From Ectothiorhodospiraceae bacterium 2226 (GTDB lineage Bacteria > Pseudomonadota > Gammaproteobacteria > GCA-013348725): 64,000 nt of DNA. The position numbers and the translations under genes were made by a program. Of the stretch, positions 3,584 to 17,044 are shown one piece after another. The stretch spans positions 1,228,501 to 1,292,500 of the forward strand of contig CP054689.1 in NCBI GenBank assembly GCA_013348725.1. The letters run 5' to 3'. The notes beneath the pieces are model-generated. The model worked only from the letters and a program-made list of their open reading frames with translations. It did not search any database and was not told the DNA's origin. Position 1 is the stretch's first letter. Every line of letters starts with the position of its first letter.

Positions 3584-4981
3584 TCAGCGCCAGCTTTCCC
3601 GCCAAGCCCGGTACTCGACCGGCCGCAGCCGGTAGCGCGCAATGTTTCCTTCATGGAGGCTCATGATCTCGGTCTCCACGACTTCGACGAATCGTGTTTG
3701 GTCCACTGCCGGCACCTGCTCTGTTGCGCTTTGCCGCACTCGTGCAGCCGCGCGCTTTCTGTCCATCCCGCTCCGGACCACGGCGGCGACTATCTCCGCA
3801 ATCAGCGCGCGGTAACGCAGGCGGAAAGGATCGGGCTCACCCAGGGACTGGCGGACCGCCGAGTAGCGGGCGCTGGAGCGCTCGTACGCCCATACGAAGA
3901 CGTCGCGCAACAGCTCGACGCGATTCAGCTCATAGATTCCCAGCACGCCTTCGACATAGGCACGCTCCGGGACATCCACGAAAGATAGTGGACAGAGGTT
4001 TCCGCGTATCAGCGGGATATTCGCCGCTAGGCGAGATACGCGTTTGTTGACGTCCTCGAAGGCCTGTAAGTAGGCGAGGTGCACCAGGGCGAAGAAGGCC
4101 TGCTCGAACGGATCGACTATCGCCGCCGCGGTCTCCAGAATAATCCCAAAGCATTCTTCGATGAGCTGCGGCACCTCCAGCGGATGGTAGACCGTGCCAC
4201 CGACACCCACCGGAATGTGCCGCAAGCGACCGCCGGCCTGCGGGTCGGCAAGCAGGTTTTCCGCAAGCAAGGCGTGCAGGTTCAGGATGGTGTATGGATT
4301 GAAACCGATCTCGTCAACCTGGTCCACGAGTAGCTCGATGGCCGCCTTGTGGTTCAGGATCATCTGCGCTTCCAGCGCGTCCTTGCCTTCGGCGGGCTCC
4401 CCCAGATCCAGCAGACGCTCGGTTTCCAACAGTGAGTAGGTATTACCCTCCAAGCGGCTGGAGTTCCAGGACAGGTCAATGAGCAGGCGGCTGTAGATTG
4501 TGCGCGCATAGGTTCCCGCCGGGCGCTCACCACCCGGCGGGCGACCTATCATCAGCAAGCGCTGGCGCGTTTCTGCTGGCAAATAGTAGGTAACGTTGGG
4601 CTGGTAATCATCCAGAAAGTCGCGCCGGTAGCCGACCGGTTTCCGGCTCTGTATGGGCGCGCGCACCGCCTGCCTGATGTCCTCCCCCTCGGGAGAGAGA
4701 GGAACGTAAAGCTCGCCCCGCGCCTCAACCGTTGCTTTGCCCACGATCAGATTTGCTGCGCCGGTAATGGCGACAGGCGCGCAATAGCGCCGGCCCTTGC
4801 CCTCGCCTTCCGCGATCAGCCGCTGCTTATCGACCAACAGGGCGAGGCGACGCTGCAGCGTGCGTCTCTCCAGTTCGGCGGGCAGAGCCTCGAGGATGGC
4901 ACTGACCGGCATGCCCTCTGGCTGTGCAGCTACAACCGCGACGATGGCATCGAGCTCTTTTTCCGGGATTCGCTTCGGCAT
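3584..4981 (-). CDS. Fic family protein with N-terminal winged helix
   Basis: A 465-residue protein. Residues 1-70 look like a winged-helix DNA-binding domain. The inhibitory-helix motif S174-x3-E178-G179-N180 lies N-terminal to the catalytic core, as in class II Fic proteins. The active-site loop runs from H301 to R314 (HLAYLQAFEDVNKR), a variant of HPFx(D/E)GN(G/K)R seen in a large Fic subgroup (phenylalanine, aspartate, asparagine and arginine kept; glycine replaced by valine). Fic enzymes usually transfer AMP or another nucleotide to protein hydroxyls. The target is unknown. The DNA-binding domain and the palindromic sites over its own promoter (4989-5082) suggest autoregulation. Confidence 0.88.
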   Translation of the reverse strand: MPKRIPEKELDAIVAVVAAQPEGMPVSAILEALPAELERRTLQRRLALLVDKQRLIAEGEGKGRRYCAPVAITGAANLIVGKATVEARGELYVPLSPEGEDIRQAVRAPIQSRKPVGYRRDFLDDYQPNVTYYLPAETRQRLLMIGRPPGGERPAGTYARTIYSRLLIDLSWNSSRLEGNTYSLLETERLLDLGEPAEGKDALEAQMILNHKAAIELLVDQVDEIGFNPYTILNLHALLAENLLADPQAGGRLRHIPVGVGGTVYHPLEVPQLIEECFGIILETAAAIVDPFEQAFFALVHLAYLQAFEDVNKRVSRLAANIPLIRGNLCPLSFVDVPERAYVEGVLGIYELNRVELLRDVFVWAYERSSARYSAVRQSLGEPDPFRLRYRALIAEIVAAVVRSGMDRKRAAARVRQSATEQVPAVDQTRFVEVVETEIMSLHEGNIARYRLRPVEYRAWRESWR

Positions 4982-8060: not shown

Positions 8061-9038
8061 CTAGCCGCCGGTGGCGCCGGTCTCGAGATCGCGCCTGACC
8101 CGCTCCGCCACCTTGCGCAGGCCCGCGTCGTTCTGCAGCAGTCCGCGGATGCGGCGCACCGACGAGCCGGCACCCGCATAGCCGCTCAGGCCAAAGCGCT
8201 CGGCAATCTCCGCCAAGGTGAGGCCGCCGACCTCCTGACACAGGTACATCGCCAACGGGCGCGCCGGCGTGCGCACTGCGCGCCCACGGCGACCGACCCA
8301 CACCTCCTGCTCGTCGACGCCCATGCGCCGGCACACGGCGGCCACGATCTCATCCACCGACGGACGCACCTGCGCCGCCCGCACCGCCGGCCGATCGGGG
8401 TCCGGCGCCTTGCCCGCCAGCACCCGCGCGCGAAACGCCTCGTCACCCAGGATGCCGCTGCCCGAGCGCTGCTCATAGTACGCCCGCAACGCCTCGTCCG
8501 TATCGCCCGCCACGAACGCCCGGTAGCGCCGCTGGCGATCCCGCGCGCCGATCGCCTTGAGCACGTCGTCGGTACGCAAACACGGCGGGCGCGGCTCCAG
8601 GCCTACATAGGCGCGGTAGCTCGACCAGGGGTAGTCGTCCAGATCGCGCACCATGCCCGCCTCCAGCGGATTGCGGTGGATGTAGCGCGAGAGCTCCAGC
8701 CAATGGGCATCCGCGTCCACCAGCACCGCCCTGTAGCGCCCCCGGAACAGCGCCCCGTCGCGCCGTTCCGCGCGATTGAAGAACTGGGTATACAGCCCGT
8801 TGACGTGCCGCATCACCCGCTGGAGATTCCCCTCCGGGGTGCGCAGCAACAGATGGTAGTGGTTGTCCATCAGGCAGTAGGCATGCCACTCCGCCCGATA
8901 GCGCTCCGCCGTCGCGGCGAGCAACTGAAGGAAATACTCCCGCTGCGCATCGGTCTTGAACACCCGCTTGCGCCCCGCCCCACGGTTCATCACGTGATAC
9001 CACGCACCGGGATACTCGATTCGGAGAGGTCTGGCCAT
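8061..9038 (-). CDS. REP-associated tyrosine transposase (RAYT)
   Basis: A 325-residue protein of the IS200/Y1-transposase superfamily. The N-terminal catalytic domain shows MARPLRIEYPGAWYHVMNRG, the metal-binding MDNHYHLLL around residues 58-66, and the nucleophile tyrosine in LELSRYIHRNP near 125. The C-terminal 90 residues (RPSVDEIVAAVCRRMGVD to YAGAGSSVRRI) resemble the DnaA-type helix-turn-helix domain often fused to this family. RAYTs act as single-strand DNA nucleases at short palindromic REP sequences and are usually single-copy, domesticated genes. No frameshift is seen, so it is probably functional. An IS3 element sits 39 bases upstream of its ATG, which likely separates it from its native promoter. 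Confidence 0.9.
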   Translation of the reverse strand: MARPLRIEYPGAWYHVMNRGAGRKRVFKTDAQREYFLQLLAATAERYRAEWHAYCLMDNHYHLLLRTPEGNLQRVMRHVNGLYTQFFNRAERRDGALFRGRYRAVLVDADAHWLELSRYIHRNPLEAGMVRDLDDYPWSSYRAYVGLEPRPPCLRTDDVLKAIGARDRQRRYRAFVAGDTDEALRAYYEQRSGSGILGDEAFRARVLAGKAPDPDRPAVRAAQVRPSVDEIVAAVCRRMGVDEQEVWVGRRGRAVRTPARPLAMYLCQEVGGLTLAEIAERFGLSGYAGAGSSVRRIRGLLQNDAGLRKVAERVRRDLETGATGG

Positions 9039-9108
9039 GGCGGGAGGCTACGAAGGAATGCTATGCAAAACGAGATTTGAGCTAACCCGGATTCCTCGGA
9101 CAGGTTAA

Positions 9109-9968
9109 TTAAGCATTTCGCCATTCGCCATCAACTTCCTCCGGCGTGCGATAGCCCAGAGTCTGGTGCAATCGCTGCCGGTTATAGTACACCTCGATGT
9201 AGTCGAAGATCGCGGCCTTGGCATAGTCCCGCGTCGGGAAGTCGCGGTGGTGCACGAGCTCGTTCTTTAGGCTCGAGAAGAAACTCTCCGCGACCGCATT
9301 GTCGTAAGCGCTCTTGCGACCACTCATGCTGGGAAGGGCGCCCGCTGCTTGTAAGCGATCCCGATACATAGCGGCGCTGTAGGTGGCTCCGCGGTCCGTG
9401 TGGTGGATGAGGCCCGGTGGGGGCGCCCGGTGCGCGAGCGCCATGTTCAACGCAGCTAGAGCGAGATCTTTGTCCGGACGCGTTCCCATCGCCCAGCCCA
9501 CCACTTTGCGGGAGTAGAGGTCGAGCAGCACCGCGAGGTTGAGCCACCTCCCGGGTGCGGATGAAGGTGATATCCCCGACCCACGCACGATTGGGCGCCG
9601 ACGCGAGGAAACGACGCTCCAGTCTATCGGGCGCCGCCAGAGGTGTCTGGTGGTGCTCGATGATCACCCGAAAGCGGCGCTTGCGGTTGGCTTCGATGCC
9701 ATCGCGCTTCCTCAGCCGCGCCACACGGTGCTTGCCACAGGGGACGCCTTCGCGGCGTAGAACATGCCAAGTCTTGAGCGCGCCGCACGCCTGTCGGTGT
9801 TCACGGTGGATGCGGCGGATCTCGATCAGGAGGGCGGCATCAGACTGCGCGCGGGCGCTAGTCCCGCGCCCCTGCCAACATAAAAGCGCTGCGCGAGACC
9901 TGTAGGGCACGGCACAATGAGGCCAAGGAGTACTGCGAGCGCGACACTGCGATGTAGGCGTACTTCAC
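9109..9968 (-). pseudogene. IS3 orfB (DDE transposase), two frameshifts
   Basis: GTG at 9968 overlaps the orfA stop (GTGA) and opens KYAYIAVSRSQYSLASLCRAL. The frame breaks near 9876-9881 (after SRSAFY, before WQGRG). It breaks again near 9546-9552 (after TFIRTRE, before WLNLAVLLDLYSRKVVGW). Both breaks go in the same direction, as if one base were inserted or two lost. All catalytic parts are still readable across the three frames: D in VGDITFI, D in HHTDRGATY and E in NAVAESFF. The end is DYIEVYYNRQRLHQTLGY. The natural IS3 -1 frameshift joins orfA and orfB and cannot explain breaks inside orfB. Confidence 0.85.
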
Positions 9969-10294
9969 GTCAGATCCTTCGCGAAGTACGCCGCAGCTTT
10001 TTTTAAGATGTCGCGCTCCTCGGTGACCCGCTTGAGCTCTCGGCGCAGGCGTTCGATTTCGCTCTGCTCGTCAAGGGGCTTGCGGCCTGGTCCACGGAAA
10101 GCGCGATCTGTTCCAGCGACGTCGAGCTGCTCCCTCCATTTATAAAGCTGGTTGCGCGCGACTCCCAGTTCCAGCGCGAGCTGGGTCGCTGGCTTCTGGC
10201 CAAGCTCCAATAGGCGTACTGCTTCGAGCTTGAACTCTTTCGTATACCGGGTGCGCAGGCGCTCCGGATTCACCTTATTCTTCTTCGTTCCCAT
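9965..10294 (-). CDS. IS3 orfA (transposase helix-turn-helix subunit)
   Basis: A 109-residue protein. It has the IS3 orfA pattern: a helix-turn-helix (YTKEFKLEAVRLLELG, ATQLALELGVARNQLYKWREQL) and a leucine-zipper-like coiled coil (SEIERLRRELKRVTEERDILKKAAAYFAK). Near the 3' end a run of seven A residues (minus strand, about 10004-9998) followed by a CTTCGCGAAG inverted repeat is the kind of slippery site and stem used for -1 frameshifting to make the OrfAB transposase. The ATG at 10294 has a CAGGAGGTGTCCG site upstream. Confidence 0.9.
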   Translation of the reverse strand: MGTKKNKVNPERLRTRYTKEFKLEAVRLLELGQKPATQLALELGVARNQLYKWREQLDVAGTDRAFRGPGRKPLDEQSEIERLRRELKRVTEERDILKKAAAYFAKDLT

Positions 10295-10358
10295 CGGACA
10301 CCTCCTGAGGTATTGTCTACCTTCAAAAGTGTCCGAGAAAAGCGGGTTAGCTCAATTC

Positions 10359-10385: not shown

Positions 10386-10464
10386 CTTGGTTCTCTGGTA
10401 TCCTTGGTGCTAAACGGTGTAATATGATCGCGCGAGGGTCCCGCACATGCCGAGATGAATAAGA

Positions 10465-10644
10465 ATGCCAGACATGAAGCGTTTCAGCGTGTCCCTAGAC
10501 CTTGACGAGTGTGAAGAGTTACGCCGTATCGCTGCCGCACATCGGCAACCGCTTTCCCTTCAGTATGTCATCCGTTGCGCATTGCAAAGGTTTATTGACT
10601 ACCACAAAGGCAAACAACTTCTTCTGCCGCTCGACCGGAAATAG
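10465..10644 (+). CDS. Small ribbon-helix-helix-like protein
   Basis: A 59-residue protein, MPDMKRFSVSLDLDECEELR..., with the Arc/MetJ/CopG pattern: a short strand (KRFSVSLD), an amphipathic helix (LDECEELRRIAAAHR), a turn with LS, and a second helix (QYVIRCALQRFIDYHKG). Its stop is 12 bases before the methyltransferase start and the gap contains that gene's AAGG site, so the two are one transcript. A second ATG at 10474 is also possible. RHH proteins of this size normally bind operator DNA as dimers. Here an autoregulator of the restriction-modification operon is the natural inference. A TATGAT box at 10423-10428 could be its -10, but no clear -35 is seen. Confidence 0.65.
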   Translation: MPDMKRFSVSLDLDECEELRRIAAAHRQPLSLQYVIRCALQRFIDYHKGKQLLLPLDRK

Positions 10645-10656
10645 AGGACGTTAAGG

Positions 10657-11967
10657 TTGAGCGCACATCGGTTTATTGATCTGTTTGCAGGCCTGGGAGG
10701 CTTCCATCAGGCACTCAGCGCGCGCGGGGCAGAATGCGTGTTTGCGTCCGAACTCAATCCGCAACTGTCCAATCTGTACGAGAAGAACTTTGGCATCAAG
10801 CCCGCAGGTGATATACGCAAAGTAGATCTCAAAACCATACCGGACCACGACGTTTTATGCGCTGGATTCCCCTGCCAGCCTTTTTCTAAGGCAGGAGATC
10901 AAAAGGGGCTAGAATGTCCACAGTGGGGTAATCTGTTCGGATATGTTGTAAAGATTCTCAAGTTCAAGGAACCACGTTACTTCATCATCGAGAACGTTCC
11001 CAACCTTGTGAAGCACGACAACGGGAAGACTTGGGAAACTATTTGCGACCAACTATCCGAAGATTACGACATCAGCTATCACATGCTATCGCCGCACATG
11101 TTCGGAATTCCTCAAAAGCGGGAACGGGCGTTCATCGTCGGAGACCGTCTTGGGCTTAACGGGTTTAAATGGCCAGAGCCAGCGACTTTCCCCAAAACTT
11201 CCATAAGGGACGTGCTCGACGACGAACCGGCTGATGCCCATAGCCTCAATGACAATCACGTCCGCTACCTGGAAACCTGGCAAGAATTTTTAACTGGGTT
11301 TCCCAAAGACGTAGAGCTGCCGTCCTTTCCTATATGGGCCATGGAGTTCGGAGCAACATATCCCCTAGATGGACCTACTCCCCACAAGCGGGGCTACATC
11401 GGACTTGACAAATACAAAGGAGCATTCGGGCAACCGCTCAAAGGGCTAACGCCGGATCAAGTGCGTTCTGCTCTCCCTGGTTACGCCCATACTGCCATCA
11501 ACACATTTCCGGCCTGGAAGGTAGACTTTATCCTGAAGAATCGGGAACTCTACAAGAACCACAAGGTGCTCATAGATAGGCTGATCGAGAAGATTAGAAC
11601 ATTCCCGCCCAGCTTCCAGAAGCTAGAGTGGAACTGCAAAGGGAGCGAGCGAAACATCTGGCAACATGTCCTGCAGTTTAGGGCGAGTGGTATACGTGTT
11701 AAGAAAGAGGACACAGCACCATCGCTGATTGCTATGACGACCAGCCAGGTCCCGATCATTGCCTGGAAGAAGCGTTTTATGACACCGCGCGAATGCAGTC
11801 GTCTCCAAAGCATGGGGGAGTTGAAGCATCTTCCCGATTCTAAGGGCGATGCTTACAAGGCATTCGGCAATGCGGTAAACGTTGACGTTGTGCAGAACAT
11901 TTACGATGCACTCGTCCGGCGGACGGCAGAAATGCGCGACATCGATCAGGTCATGGCGGCCGAGTGA
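10657..11967 (+). CDS. DNA (cytosine-5) methyltransferase
   Basis: A 436-residue m5C methyltransferase starting at TTG 10657 behind AAGG. Motif I is FAGLGGFH (10-17), motif IV GFPCQPFS with the nucleophile C73, motif VI ENV (112-114), motif VIII QKRER (153-157) and motif X AFGNAVNVDVV near 412. The target-recognition region lies about 180-370 and is not recognisable, so the methylated sequence is unknown. It is the modification arm of the operon and should protect host DNA. Its stop TGA shares a base with the ATG of the next gene. GC content is visibly lower than in flanking core genes, which suggests horizontal acquisition. Confidence 0.95.
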   Translation: MSAHRFIDLFAGLGGFHQALSARGAECVFASELNPQLSNLYEKNFGIKPAGDIRKVDLKTIPDHDVLCAGFPCQPFSKAGDQKGLECPQWGNLFGYVVKILKFKEPRYFIIENVPNLVKHDNGKTWETICDQLSEDYDISYHMLSPHMFGIPQKRERAFIVGDRLGLNGFKWPEPATFPKTSIRDVLDDEPADAHSLNDNHVRYLETWQEFLTGFPKDVELPSFPIWAMEFGATYPLDGPTPHKRGYIGLDKYKGAFGQPLKGLTPDQVRSALPGYAHTAINTFPAWKVDFILKNRELYKNHKVLIDRLIEKIRTFPPSFQKLEWNCKGSERNIWQHVLQFRASGIRVKKEDTAPSLIAMTTSQVPIIAWKKRFMTPRECSRLQSMGELKHLPDSKGDAYKAFGNAVNVDVVQNIYDALVRRTAEMRDIDQVMAAE

Positions 11968-13541
11968 TGGCCCTTCTACAGTCAATAAATATACTCCCTG
12001 GCGTTAACGTCCTTTCTGTGCTGCCTCACCTCAACTACAAGGCCTGGTTCGCAATCGCGGAGTTCGTTGACAATGCGATTCAGAGCAGCATTGATCGTCA
12101 GAAAGAGCTACAGGCCGCGCACAAGGACACTTATAGACTCACCATTGACATAGACGTCTACCCTCATGAAGGAAGCATAACGATCCGAGATAATGCTGCA
12201 GGCATCTCGGCAAACGACTACGCACGGGCCTTCCGGCCCGCAGAAATTCCACCCAACGCCTCGGGGCTTTCCGAGTTTGGCATGGGGATGAAAAGTGCGG
12301 CCTGTTGGTTTTCTCCCAACTGGAGTGTCACGACAACGGCTCTCGGCGAGAACGTTCAGAGAGCCGTTTACTTTGACATCGACACAATTGTTGAAGACCG
12401 CATCGAAGAACTCCATGTCATTCATACGCACGTATCGGCGGAAAAGCATTTCACCGAAGTAAGGCTAGACAACATCCGGCGGTTCCCGCAGGGCAATACG
12501 ATCAAGAAGATTAAGAGTCACCTCGCGAGCATCTATAGGATATTCCTGCGAGAACGAAGCTTGATCCTTCGCATCAATGGCGAAGCGTTGGTCTACGAAG
12601 AACCCGAGATCTTAGTGGCTCCCTCCTACCGGGACCCCGATGGACCGGAGATCGAGTGGAAGAAGGAAATTGAGATCGACCTCGGAGGCAACAAGTCAGC
12701 GGTTGGTTTCGTCGCCATTAGGAGAACCATTAGCAATCAGTTTGCGGGATTAGCACTGTTTCGCCGAAAGAGACTGATCCTCGGCAGCTATGATGAGACT
12801 TATAGGCCAAAAGACATTTTCGGTGCCTCGAATACTTACGCGTATTTGCGTGTCTTCGGGGAAATCCACCTTAAGGGTTTCCAAGTCAGCCATACCAAAG
12901 ACGGCATTCAGTGGGAGGAGACCGAGGAGAGGTTTTTAATCAAGCTCCGCGGAGAGCTTTCGAAAGACGATTTTCCGCTGCTTCAGCAAGTCCGGGAGTA
13001 CCGCAGCAAAAGAGATGTCAAGACAACACGTAAGGATGCAGCTACCGCTCTCAAGACCATGGCCGCGCGACTGCACGGCAAGGATGTGTCGAACCCATAC
13101 TCAGAAGAACCGCAACCTCCGGCCCTGTCGGACACATCCGGGCAAACCAACCCCGCCCCAACACAGCTTCCCAAGATCGCGGACGCCGAGCAGGAGCGGG
13201 TTGAGTTTAAGATGCGGTTCCGAGATGAGTTGTGGATCGTCTCCATCGAGTTGTCTTACGCAGATGAAAACAGCAACTGGGTGGAGATCAGTAACCGGCC
13301 CTCGTTCACGGACCCCGAACCACGTCAGGTTACAATTCGCATCTCCATGCTTCACCCCTTCATGGCGCAGTTCCCAACGCTCGACTCCGAAAGCTTCCTC
13401 GCCGTGCTTAACGTGGCAGCCGCCATGGCTCTCGCGGAGGTCGCGGCAGGTGAGCGCGCCGAAAGACATCCCTCTGCCGTGCGCCGCTTCACGAACGAAA
13501 TTCTCCGAGATCAACTTTCGAAGCCAATCTCCAATGACTAG
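11967..13541 (+). CDS. MORC/MutL-like GHKL ATPase
   Basis: A 524-residue protein with the GHKL ATP-binding fold at its N-terminus: N-box EFVDNA (E32, N36), G1 box DNAAGI (75-80) and G2 box SEFGMGMKSAA (102-112). The S5-like second half of the ATPase follows, including RRTISNQFAGLALFRRKRLILG near 250. The K-rich VSHTKDGIQWEE is near 310. This is the prokaryotic MORC type found in predicted restriction-modification operons. A polar proline-rich linker near 375-405 leads to a C-terminal domain I do not recognise. A GTG at 11964 is an alternative start. The 3' end overlaps the Z1 gene by eight bases. An ATP-driven clamp on DNA is inferred from MORC and MutL biology. Confidence 0.9.
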   Translation: MALLQSINILPGVNVLSVLPHLNYKAWFAIAEFVDNAIQSSIDRQKELQAAHKDTYRLTIDIDVYPHEGSITIRDNAAGISANDYARAFRPAEIPPNASGLSEFGMGMKSAACWFSPNWSVTTTALGENVQRAVYFDIDTIVEDRIEELHVIHTHVSAEKHFTEVRLDNIRRFPQGNTIKKIKSHLASIYRIFLRERSLILRINGEALVYEEPEILVAPSYRDPDGPEIEWKKEIEIDLGGNKSAVGFVAIRRTISNQFAGLALFRRKRLILGSYDETYRPKDIFGASNTYAYLRVFGEIHLKGFQVSHTKDGIQWEETEERFLIKLRGELSKDDFPLLQQVREYRSKRDVKTTRKDAATALKTMAARLHGKDVSNPYSEEPQPPALSDTSGQTNPAPTQLPKIADAEQERVEFKMRFRDELWIVSIELSYADENSNWVEISNRPSFTDPEPRQVTIRISMLHPFMAQFPTLDSESFLAVLNVAAAMALAEVAAGERAERHPSAVRRFTNEILRDQLSKPISND

Positions 13542-15735
13542 TAAGCCCAACGTGATAGCTGTTTCCCCTGCTTCCGTGACCCATAATGGCAAGTGGTCGC
13601 CCATACAGAGGTCCGCGCTAACTGACCTCCTTGAGTCCAATCGCGATCTCTCGCCGGAGGAAAAGGAAAGGCTCGTTCAAGAGACAACGTCGATCTTGAG
13701 CGAGTGCGTCGCACCGGACGCCAGCGACGAGACCAACACGGGTCTAGTGATTGGCTATGTCCAAAGCGGCAAGACGCTTTCCTTCACAAGTTTGACCGCT
13801 TTGGCGCGAGATAATGGTTACAGGCTCGTGATCCTGCTGGCGGGCACCACTAACAACCTCGTTGAGCAGTCGTTTGACCGTCTGAAGAACGACCTTGACG
13901 TTGCGGGCGCGCGCGAGTGGAACGTCTTTACCACTCAGATGAAGGCGTTCCAGGAAAGCGAAGTCAGGCGTGTCGACAAGGAACTCGGAGCATGGCGTAG
14001 GAAAAGCGCCCGGGCAAGGACGATCATCATCGTCTCGATGAAGCAGCATCAGCATCTAGACAACCTCACCAAGCTGCTAGCGGGTTCCGACTTCTCCGAT
14101 GTTCCGACGCTCATCATCGACGATGAGGGCGACCAAGCTGGCTTGAACACCAAGGCCAAGCAAGACGACGAGAGTACCACCTATGAGAGGATCAAAGCGC
14201 TTCGCGCCTTATTCCCGCACCATAGCTATGTGCTCTATACAGCCACGCCCCAGGCACCGCTGCTGATCAGCCGCATCGACGCCCTATCACCGGACTTCGG
14301 CAGAGTAATTACTCCCGGAACGAACTATGTTGGCGGGCAAGAGTTTTTTGTCGATGGTCACGATCGGTACATCGAACTGATACCAAGTTCAGATGTACCG
14401 GACAAAAATGATCCGCCCCTGCACCCGCCAGAAAGCCTCAAAGATGCGCTTCGTGACTTTTTCATCGGCGTTGCGATTGGTTTTTTAGAGGACGAGTTCA
14501 AGAAAGGTCGAAACCGCTCAATGATGATTCATCCAGCGGTTGGCAAAGATGATCACTTGATGTATGCGCGCTGGGCGCGCCAAATCAAGGATCATTGGGC
14601 TACCATACTCCAAGACCCGTCCCATCCGGAGCATACGGATTTAATCGAAGATTTCCGCGCAGCCACGAGAGATCTCCTCGAAACCTACGACACAACGCTG
14701 ACGTTTGAGGACATCGAACCGGTTCTCTTTGAGGCTATGGAGGAAACGACCGTCGCCGAACTCAATACACGAGAAAAGGACCGGATAGCACCGGTTGAGT
14801 GGGCAGGCGAGTATAGTTGGATATTGGTCGGCGGCATCGGCCTTGACCGGGGCTTCACGGTCGAAGGTCTCACTGTAAGCTACATTCCTCGCTCAACCGG
14901 GGTTGGAAACGCTGATAATATCCAGCAGCGCGCGCGATTTTTTGGATATAAGAAGCGTTATCTTGGCCTATGCCGCATTTATCTGACCGAGGAGAATATA
15001 AACGCTTTCACTGATTATGTCCGCCATGAAGAAGCCATCCGCAGTCACATCCGAAAGCATTTGGATAGCGGCAAGACGCTGAAAGAATGGGTACGAACCT
15101 ATCCGCTCGACGCCAGCCTGAAACCAACAAGATCATCAGTCATTTTGCTTGAAATGTATCAATCAAGGGGAAAGGGTGGGTGGATCGTTCCTAAGCATCC
15201 ATTCGACGACGGTGATGTTGTATCGGAGAACCGTGAGACAGTGGATCGAATTCTAGAAAGTTTTGCGTTTTCTCCTTACGGCGAGGATGGTTGGAACGAG
15301 TTACAGATCATCCCGGCTTTTAGTAAAGACATTGTGCTATCTGACATTGTTCCTATGATCGGTCAGTTCCGCTACAAGTGGCCGGACGACACCCTGGAGC
15401 ATAGCGCGCTTATGCTGAACTTGGAGCGCATGATCGCCGACGACCCGGCGATGCGGTGTACCTTCTACGCGTTTTCTGGTCCTTGGTCAGGTGTAGAGTC
15501 GAAGCGTACGCTTACCGATAAAGAGCCGTCAAAAATCAGAGCTCTCTTCCAAGGCTCGAACGCTCGTACAAACTATCCAGGAGCTCGCGCTCTGATCTCT
15601 GCCGAGACGGTGACCTTTCAACTTCACCGGTATCACGTCCAAACTGCTGACAAGAGGAGAACCATTCGCGACGTGCCTATCCTCGCTGTGCATATCCCTG
15701 ACGCCCTTATGGAGCGTTTTTGGATCGAGCGATAG
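13534..15735 (+). CDS. Z1-domain P-loop ATPase
   Basis: A 733-residue protein started at ATG 13534, eight bases inside the MORC gene. A much longer open frame upstream is a shadow of MORC. Walker A is GYVQSGKT (74-81). A Walker-B-like IIDDEGDQA is at 193-201, which resembles superfamily-2 helicase DExx boxes. The Z1 hallmark is the later segment GGIGLDRGFTVEGLTVSYIPR and NIQQRARFFGYK near residues 430-470. The Z1 family is known almost only from MORC-associated operons and is predicted to couple ATP hydrolysis to DNA translocation or processing. It is the largest subunit here. The next gene starts six bases after its stop. Confidence 0.92.
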   Translation: MTSKPNVIAVSPASVTHNGKWSPIQRSALTDLLESNRDLSPEEKERLVQETTSILSECVAPDASDETNTGLVIGYVQSGKTLSFTSLTALARDNGYRLVILLAGTTNNLVEQSFDRLKNDLDVAGAREWNVFTTQMKAFQESEVRRVDKELGAWRRKSARARTIIIVSMKQHQHLDNLTKLLAGSDFSDVPTLIIDDEGDQAGLNTKAKQDDESTTYERIKALRALFPHHSYVLYTATPQAPLLISRIDALSPDFGRVITPGTNYVGGQEFFVDGHDRYIELIPSSDVPDKNDPPLHPPESLKDALRDFFIGVAIGFLEDEFKKGRNRSMMIHPAVGKDDHLMYARWARQIKDHWATILQDPSHPEHTDLIEDFRAATRDLLETYDTTLTFEDIEPVLFEAMEETTVAELNTREKDRIAPVEWAGEYSWILVGGIGLDRGFTVEGLTVSYIPRSTGVGNADNIQQRARFFGYKKRYLGLCRIYLTEENINAFTDYVRHEEAIRSHIRKHLDSGKTLKEWVRTYPLDASLKPTRSSVILLEMYQSRGKGGWIVPKHPFDDGDVVSENRETVDRILESFAFSPYGEDGWNELQIIPAFSKDIVLSDIVPMIGQFRYKWPDDTLEHSALMLNLERMIADDPAMRCTFYAFSGPWSGVESKRTLTDKEPSKIRALFQGSNARTNYPGARALISAETVTFQLHRYHVQTADKRRTIRDVPILAVHIPDALMERFWIER

Positions 15736-15741
15736 CTCCCT

Positions 15742-16704
15742 ATGCTTTCTGACCTTTATATTAGCCTTTGCGATAATGTGCCTCAGCGGGAGGGCCAGAT
15801 ATTTGGTCTCCCGTTGGGAGCGAATGATGTGCGTTGGTTAGGCATTGACGAGAAGAGGTATCCTGCACTTCTACTCCCGGCCAGACCTGACGATATTCGC
15901 TCGGACATCGCCCTCCGGTCCGTAGATGTGGAGTTTTCGCGATTATGTGCCATCCAGGCTGCGGATGGGGCGGCGCATGAGGGCTGCTATTCGATCATCC
16001 GACTTAAAGATGCTGATGTAGATATCGTTCGGCTCTTCCTGCGCATTCTCGAAGAGAGGTTCTGTGTTGCGCCACCTCCAAGCACGAATGCAGTAATCGC
16101 CGAGAATGTTCTGGAAATCGCGTCGCTGTTCAGTCAGCTTTCTCTCGACGCGCGTGATGTTGTCGGACTTTGGGGCGAGCTTTTCGCGATAGAGTGTTCC
16201 TCCGATGTCGAAGCCGCAGTAAAGTGTTGGAGTTCGAAAAAGCTCGCGAAATACGATTTCGTCACAACTCGTTATGTCCTTGATGTCAAGACGACACTGT
16301 CACATGTGCCAAAGCATCATTTTTCGCTTGAGCAACTAAGGCCAGTAGGAGGTTATGAAGCCTACGTCTTTTCCCTTCGCCTCGTCGAGCAGCACGGCGG
16401 CTTGACCGTTGGCGAATTGATGGATCGTATCGCCGAAAAGATCACCGATCCGGAACTGCGTGGTAATTTCTTCCGCGTATGCGTGATTAAGGGTGGCCGC
16501 GACATATATCGTAGCGATTTGCGGCTTCTTCCTTTTCCGGAAGCGGACTCATTTATGTTATTCCACGCGAGTATGCTCCCAGTACCGACTATCGTGGAGA
16601 ACGATCCCATCTCGAATATTCGTTTCGATGTTGACCTTTCCAGGCTTGAGGCTCTTGCGCGCGCCGAGGCCTCTCACATCTTGGCATTCAGGCCCGCGAC
16701 TTAG
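15742..16704 (+). CDS. PD-(D/E)XK nuclease-like protein (DUF4420 type)
   Basis: A 320-residue protein. The restriction-endonuclease-like core has E146 in LWGELFAIE, D172 in KYDFVTTRY and D181-V-K183 in LDVKTTLSH, which fits the E...PD...(D/E)XK pattern. It is followed by HFSLEQLRPVGGYEAYVFSLRL, characteristic of the DUF4420 family that accompanies MORC-Z1 operons. It is the best candidate for the DNA-cutting subunit. The ATG at 15742 is six bases after the Z1 stop, with GATAG/CTCCCT rather than a strong ribosome site, so translational coupling is likely. Transposase debris begins about 60 bases after its end. Confidence 0.88.
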   Translation: MLSDLYISLCDNVPQREGQIFGLPLGANDVRWLGIDEKRYPALLLPARPDDIRSDIALRSVDVEFSRLCAIQAADGAAHEGCYSIIRLKDADVDIVRLFLRILEERFCVAPPPSTNAVIAENVLEIASLFSQLSLDARDVVGLWGELFAIECSSDVEAAVKCWSSKKLAKYDFVTTRYVLDVKTTLSHVPKHHFSLEQLRPVGGYEAYVFSLRLVEQHGGLTVGELMDRIAEKITDPELRGNFFRVCVIKGGRDIYRSDLRLLPFPEADSFMLFHASMLPVPTIVENDPISNIRFDVDLSRLEALARAEASHILAFRPAT

Positions 16705-16767: not shown

Positions 16768-16986
16768 CTAAGGCCATTTTTTCTTCGGGGTGATACTTCC
16801 CACGCCCATATTGGGCCGTTCATTGATGTAGGTCCCAAGCCAGTGGGTCGCATACTCGCGCACCTCATCCAGCGTGTCGAAGAGGTGCTGGGCGAGCCAG
16901 TCGTCACGCACCGTGCGGTTGTAGCGCTCGATGTAAGCGTTCTGTTGTGGTTTGCCCGGGATGTCGATGCCGTTGCAGTGAATGTC
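16768..16986 (-). pseudogene. IS3-type transposase orfB remnant
   Basis: About 73 codons of the 3' end of an IS3 orfB survive: GIDIPGKPQQNAYIERYNRTVRDDWL with the catalytic E, then EVREYATHWLGTYINERPNMG. The DDE aspartates and all of orfA are gone. It belongs to a different IS3 subgroup from the element at 9078-10354. It fills most of the 340-base gap between the nuclease gene and metH and marks the right edge of the accessory island. No other gene is visible in 16705-17044. Confidence 0.85.
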
Positions 16987-17044
16987 AGGGGCAGGTTCGA
17001 ATACCGCACTGTTCGGCTGGTCGCGCGACAAACACTGCCTCTAG

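Follow-up and report, generated by a model that had tools for sequence, protein, structure and literature searches.

A MORC-Z1-DUF4420 operon of Ectothiorhodospiraceae bacterium 2226, a predicted restriction-modification-like system with a conserved methylase recognition region

Introduction

It has been proposed that the MORC silencing ATPases of eukaryotes derive from bacterial MORC proteins (Iyer 2008, PMC2292703). In that work, Iyer, Abhiman and Aravind assigned a third class of MORC operons to restriction-modification, as a prediction only (PMC2292703). A putative defence system described by Miller et al. in 2022 has a core of a Z1 protein, a PD-(D/E)XK protein and a cytosine methylase and is reported to be linked to MORC proteins, a transcriptional regulator and repair endonucleases (PMC9523054). 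A tested relative is MZA (Gao et al. 2020), a validated defence system (PMC9523054). In CglI and NgoAVII, the Z1 SF2 ATPase assembles with a separate nuclease, and the complex cleaves at unmethylated sites while consuming much ATP; the Z1 ATPases are needed for the ATP-dependent cleavage of unmethylated GCCGC sites (PMC4267653). Our literature search found no MORC-Z1 restriction operon that had been studied biochemically.

Here we describe an operon of this kind in the window, a stretch of 64,000 nucleotides of the Ectothiorhodospiraceae bacterium 2226 genome. The core of the operon is not new, as the set was predicted in 2008 (PMC2292703) and again in 2022 (PMC9523054). New in this analysis are the observations that, across phyla, the target-recognition region of the methylase matches its catalytic core in conservation, and that a ribbon-helix-helix (RHH) gene marks a subset of the loci and is accompanied by an upstream TGGTGCA triple repeat. 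A further new point is that the nuclease is apparently replaceable, a few loci being without one and one carrying a Vsr-type gene instead.

Results

Layout and composition of the operon

As the first-pass annotation had proposed, the five genes lie on one strand, the forward one, at 10465-16704; all reading frames are open and intact. An RHH (CopG-type) protein of 59 residues, the putative autoregulator of the operon, is encoded at 10465..10644 (+) and is followed after a gap of 12 bases by the gene for a C5-cytosine DNA methyltransferase of 436 residues with a TTG start (10657..11967, +). The gene for a MORC-type GHKL-S5 ATPase of 525 residues (11964..13541, +) begins at GTG 11964 or ATG 11967, overlapping the methylase gene by 4 or 1 bases. 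It is overlapped by 8 bases by the gene for a Z1-domain SF2 ATPase of 733 residues (13534..15735, +), and 6 bases further on is the gene for a DUF4420 PD-(D/E)XK nuclease of 320 residues (15742..16704, +). The junctions of 12, -1, -8 and 6 given earlier are those obtained with the ATG start of MORC. All five proteins exceed the Pfam cut-offs, including Z1 and DUF4420, so the families named from the letters alone were borne out. RHH_1 does so barely (21.4 bits against a cut-off of 20.5, E 2e-4), and the E-values of the others are 1.5e-71 (DNA_methylase), 7.6e-14 (HATPase_c_3), 9e-37 (Z1) and 2.9e-18 (DUF4420). The genome has one Z1 gene and one DUF4420 gene, both within the operon.

The lower GC content noted in the first pass is confirmed, at 0.52-0.57 in the operon against about 0.65-0.75 nearby, and the four larger genes have a GC3 of 0.55-0.64 against 0.93 in the neighbouring metH-like gene. 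From this composition, lateral acquisition of the operon can fairly be inferred. The operon is absent from the nearest genomes compared, which are of the same class only and none closer.

Insertion sequences had been reported on both sides, and this holds for the left border. An intact IS3-type element (9078..10354, -), outside the system, has inverted ends and is flanked by a 3-bp duplication, ATT, at 9075-9077 and 10355-10357; it ends 110 bp before the RHH start. The genome holds two more near-identical copies, so the element was probably active recently. Its own duplication, inverted ends and further copies mark it as a separate simple insertion and not as the carrier of the operon. On the right there is only an unrelated fragment, a C-terminal transposase (rve_3) remnant at 16768..17031 (-), also outside the system, with one copy elsewhere that is 85% identical. 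A composite transposon was considered and rejected, as the left element carries a target duplication of its own and is not related to the right remnant. Farther left, the window encodes a Y1 (IS200-like) transposase with a DnaA-type helix-turn-helix C-terminal domain (8061-9038, -) and, about 4 kb upstream of the IS3-type element, a Fic/DOC-domain protein (3584-4981, -).

Active sites and structural models

The methylase has its catalytic cysteine, C73, in an intact PCQ motif, as previously suggested, and the ENV and QxRxR motifs are also conserved. In MORC, the N, G1 and G2 boxes of the GHKL fold are intact as E33, D36 and N37, DNAAGI at 76-81 and GLSEFGMGMKSA at 101-112, all near-invariant among 80 homologues; the earlier numbering E32/N36 is exact with the ATG start and one residue off with the GTG start. 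The MORC-defining motif G-h-x-h-h-p-x-x-R-h-l reads GLALFRRKRLI at 262-272 and is kept in 81/81 sequences. An AlphaFold model of the protein (mean pLDDT 84), with a C-terminal domain at about 406-518, shows structural matches to Hsp90/TRAP1 and to DNA-bound human MORC2. The Z1 protein, which scores 164 bits against the PADLOC type II helicase, carries GYVQSGKT, DDEGDQ, YTATPQA and DNIQQRARFFG, conserved across 79 sequences, the last within the column pattern GnaD.iqQRaRFfGYK.

In the nuclease, the D181/K183 pair proposed earlier is accompanied by E146, D172 and Q198, and the catalytic residues are conserved in relatives, with position 181 being E in 57 and D in 12 of 69 sequences. A search of the PDB with its structure model (pLDDT 92) gave nothing significant, MutH appearing only at non-significant E-values, and a PDB sequence search with MORC, the nuclease and Z1 gave no useful match; the predicted restriction-endonuclease fold of the nuclease is thus an assignment by sequence and Pfam profile. 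The operon is a real, intact and probably functional member of a known, predicted restriction-modification-like class.

Comparison with described systems

The link drawn earlier to the predicted MORC/Z1/REase/methylase set stands, since the family assignments are right and the operon matches the third class of Iyer et al. (PMC2292703). Common to both are a MORC protein with GhXhhpXXRhl, a restriction-endonuclease-fold protein with E-D-ExK and a cytosine methylase, sometimes with Vsr (PMC2292703). The operon has the MORC signature, the GHKL motifs with an S5 fold, the SF2 motif and the E-D-ExK residues of that class, the SF2 motif DThhQXuRhFG (PMC2292703) occurring here as DNIQQRARFFG with N in place of T. 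The GhXhhpXXRhl motif is also found in two of three MzaB proteins and does not separate this class from MZA. The RHH regulator found here is not mentioned in the portion of the Iyer text compared (PMC2292703). With the system of Miller et al. the operon shares the core; their type II has an AIPR protein that the operon lacks (PMC9523054).

MZA likewise has a GHKL ATPase, a Z1 ATPase and a DUF4420 nuclease in the same order with an m5C methylase nearby (PMC9523054). In contrast to the operon, MZA has the AIPR protein MzaE, and its methylase is of a different subfamily. An AIPR gene was not matched in any of 89 loci or among the window genes, and the NCBIfam equivalog scores are 26 bits for MzaB, 126 for MzaC and 29 for MzaD against cut-offs of 850, 1500 and 420. 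Assignment to MZA was accordingly rejected, the scores being far below the curated cut-offs and AIPR missing; on these comparisons the operon is a distant, AIPR-less cousin of MZA. CglI and NgoAVII share an m5C methylase, a Z1-domain SF2 ATPase and a separate nuclease with the operon, but their nuclease is a PLD enzyme with a B3-like domain and they have no MORC, whereas the operon has a DUF4420 PD-(D/E)XK nuclease and MORC (PMC4267653). The recognition region of their methylases is unrelated to the one found here.

Distribution and co-inheritance

A scan of 84,980 genomes for the MORC protein confirmed 193 relatives, of which the best 80 were kept. These best 80 come from Alphaproteobacteria, other proteobacteria, Acidobacteriota, Bacteroidota, Chloroflexota, Poribacteria, Planctomycetota, Gemmatimonadota and a Nanoarchaeota bin. 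Every one of the best 80 loci has a Z1 homologue, and the neighbours of MORC include the methylase in 74, Z1 in 75 and the nuclease in 68. The set also occurs on nine virus-like contigs, in some cases interrupted by contig ends; no MORC protein was found in phage records. The pairwise distances of the four larger proteins are correlated (r = 0.77-0.95, permutation p <= 0.001, 62 sequence sets), which argues that they are inherited together, the co-divergence partly reflecting sampling by MORC similarity.

Some loci depart from this arrangement, and they count against a restriction-modification reading. In 6 of the 80 the methylase is not directly upstream on the same strand. Several missing nucleases are explained by contig ends, and seven loci (L017, L029, L034, L038, L057, L061, L066) have no recognizable nuclease in the available sequence. 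In L034 a Vsr-type gene occupies the nuclease position after Z1; for the other six an unlinked or unrecognized effector is possible. Vsr-type endonuclease genes lie beside the operon in 14 related loci, among them L029, L034, L035, L036 and L037.

A conserved target-recognition region in the methylase

The recognition region of m5C methylases normally varies freely between specificities. Here it comprises about 180 residues (approximately 195-372), and its identity closely follows that of the catalytic part: within the closest clade the values are 0.72 and 0.73, respectively, and to the other loci 0.50 and 0.54, while nuclease identity in the same comparison drops to 0.19-0.33. Same-class control methylases (27 usable, five aberrant or truncated ones being excluded) behave differently at low relatedness: where catalytic identity is 0.3-0.4, mean identity of the recognition region is 0.15 in control pairs and 0.46 in this family, and at 0.4-0.5 the means are 0.27 and 0.43. 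At 0.5-0.6 the two means no longer differ (0.45 and 0.44), with minima of 0.00 in the controls and 0.33 in the family. A profile of the recognition region only matches 84/89 operon loci and 0/29 control methylases; since most of those loci went into building it, it is the comparison with the controls that carries the information. The five misses are L053 and L092, where the contig ends there, and L039, L061 and L079, which have other methylases, L061 being one of the loci without a nuclease. A recognition region as conserved as the catalytic core and absent from the controls suggests that the family keeps one fixed target sequence across phyla. Taking that target from M.NgoAVII (GCCGC) or the MZA methylases (GCAGC) was rejected, as only the catalytic parts align; similarity to M.HhaI is likewise mainly in the catalytic part.

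The RHH gene and its upstream repeats

In 10 other loci, from four genomes and six virus-like contigs, the same methylase gene is immediately preceded by an RHH homologue. All 10 have three TGGTGCA-type direct repeats at 10-bp spacing just upstream of the RHH gene, scoring 17-20/21 (for example L042, L047, L052 and L094-L098), whereas upstream of the methylase in 74 RHH-less loci the score is at most 14; the consensus was derived from these loci in advance of the test and is therefore post hoc, and several of the loci are close kin. In the window, no palindromic operator was found upstream of the RHH gene. Instead there are three TGGTGCA-type direct repeats 9-10 bp apart (TGGTATCCTTGGTGCTAAACGGTGTA) at 10396..10421 (+), with spacings of 9 and 10 and a score of 15/21 (shuffle p = 0.009). 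As a candidate RHH operator, the repeats are a strong lead in the ten loci but a less strong one in the window. In L042, MORC is encoded on one strand and the RHH-methylase pair on the other; therefore, the RHH gene goes with the methylase gene.

Discussion

We consider it likely, short of confidence, that the operon encodes a restriction system of the MORC-Z1-DUF4420 class that depends on ATP and is directed by cytosine methylation. The restriction-modification-like function put forward in the first pass thus stands as the reading with the best support, which comes from gene content, co-inheritance and homology to the biochemically studied Z1 ATPases of CglI and NgoAVII. It draws on the profile matches, the conserved catalytic residues, the gene order in 80 loci, the co-divergence and the class of Iyer et al., together with the diverged domain set of MZA, the CglI/NgoAVII precedent, the foreign composition and the virus-like contigs. 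Under this scenario, the methylase, whose m5C catalytic motifs are in place, would mark one sequence on host DNA, a sequence that the conserved recognition region suggests is fixed. A MORC dimer, with the GHKL and S5 folds of the model, would close on DNA upon binding ATP, and the Z1 SF2 ATPase, with its motifs present, would couple MORC to the PD-(D/E)XK nuclease. The nuclease would then cut DNA with unmethylated sites, such as that of a phage, by analogy with the Z1 ATPases of CglI and NgoAVII that license a PLD nuclease. The clamp-plus-motor sensing put forward in the first pass, and an effect on phage, are likewise hypothetical. Repression of the methylase-led operon by the RHH protein, via the upstream direct repeats, is probable and would limit expression when the operon enters a new host.

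Since the operon encodes diverged counterparts of MzaB, MzaC and MzaD, an abortive or stress-triggered defence like that of MZA is also conceivable, with rather low probability. Methylation would then be a side mark, and the GHKL/Z1/nuclease complex would detect intermediates of phage replication or DNA ends, not unmethylated sites. In favour of this, MZA has an m5C methylase in addition to its AIPR protein, and some of our loci have no adjacent methylase; however, AIPR is found in 0/89 loci, and the methylase is the nearest partner in 74/80 and co-diverges with the other proteins. It appears quite improbable that the operon is silent in this host, a relic severed from its promoter by the IS3-type element. 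That element ends close to the RHH gene and the stretch left between them has no sigma-70-like promoter match, yet the five frames are intact, the active sites are conserved and the candidate operator remains in that stretch.

Vsr genes commonly accompany m5C methylases, where they repair deaminated sites. This weakens the argument that the 14 Vsr-bearing loci offer for a still slightly less probable role, in which the mark set by the methylase is epigenetic and serves repair or silencing instead of restriction, with Vsr and MORC acting as in mismatch repair or MORC silencing. The relation of GHKL proteins to MutL would fit such a role and one fixed target would suit a genome-wide mark, but the patchy lateral distribution, the virus-like contigs and the predicted nuclease favour defence. 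The Vsr association was also noted by Iyer et al. (PMC2292703).

A feature that counts against the restriction reading itself is that restriction-modification systems usually diversify target recognition and the MORC-Z1-DUF4420 family does not. The structure model of the nuclease, with no significant match to a solved structure, also counts against it. Tentatively, and with more doubt than belief, we propose that the family keeps one unchanging target across bacterial phyla and the Nanoarchaeota bin while its nuclease diverges fast, that self and non-self are read by a conserved ATPase (MORC or Z1) and not by a target-matched nuclease, and that a mobile subset is timed by an RHH repressor acting on the TGGTGCA repeats. 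An intact and compact member with a conserved recognition region opens a direct test of whether there is one methylated motif and of which ATPase senses its absence. The link between RHH protein and operator, if true, would be an added layer of control that could explain safe establishment in new hosts.

The methylase subfamily may also extend beyond the MORC-Z1-DUF4420 system, as the PADLOC DruM2 model aligns over the full length of the protein.
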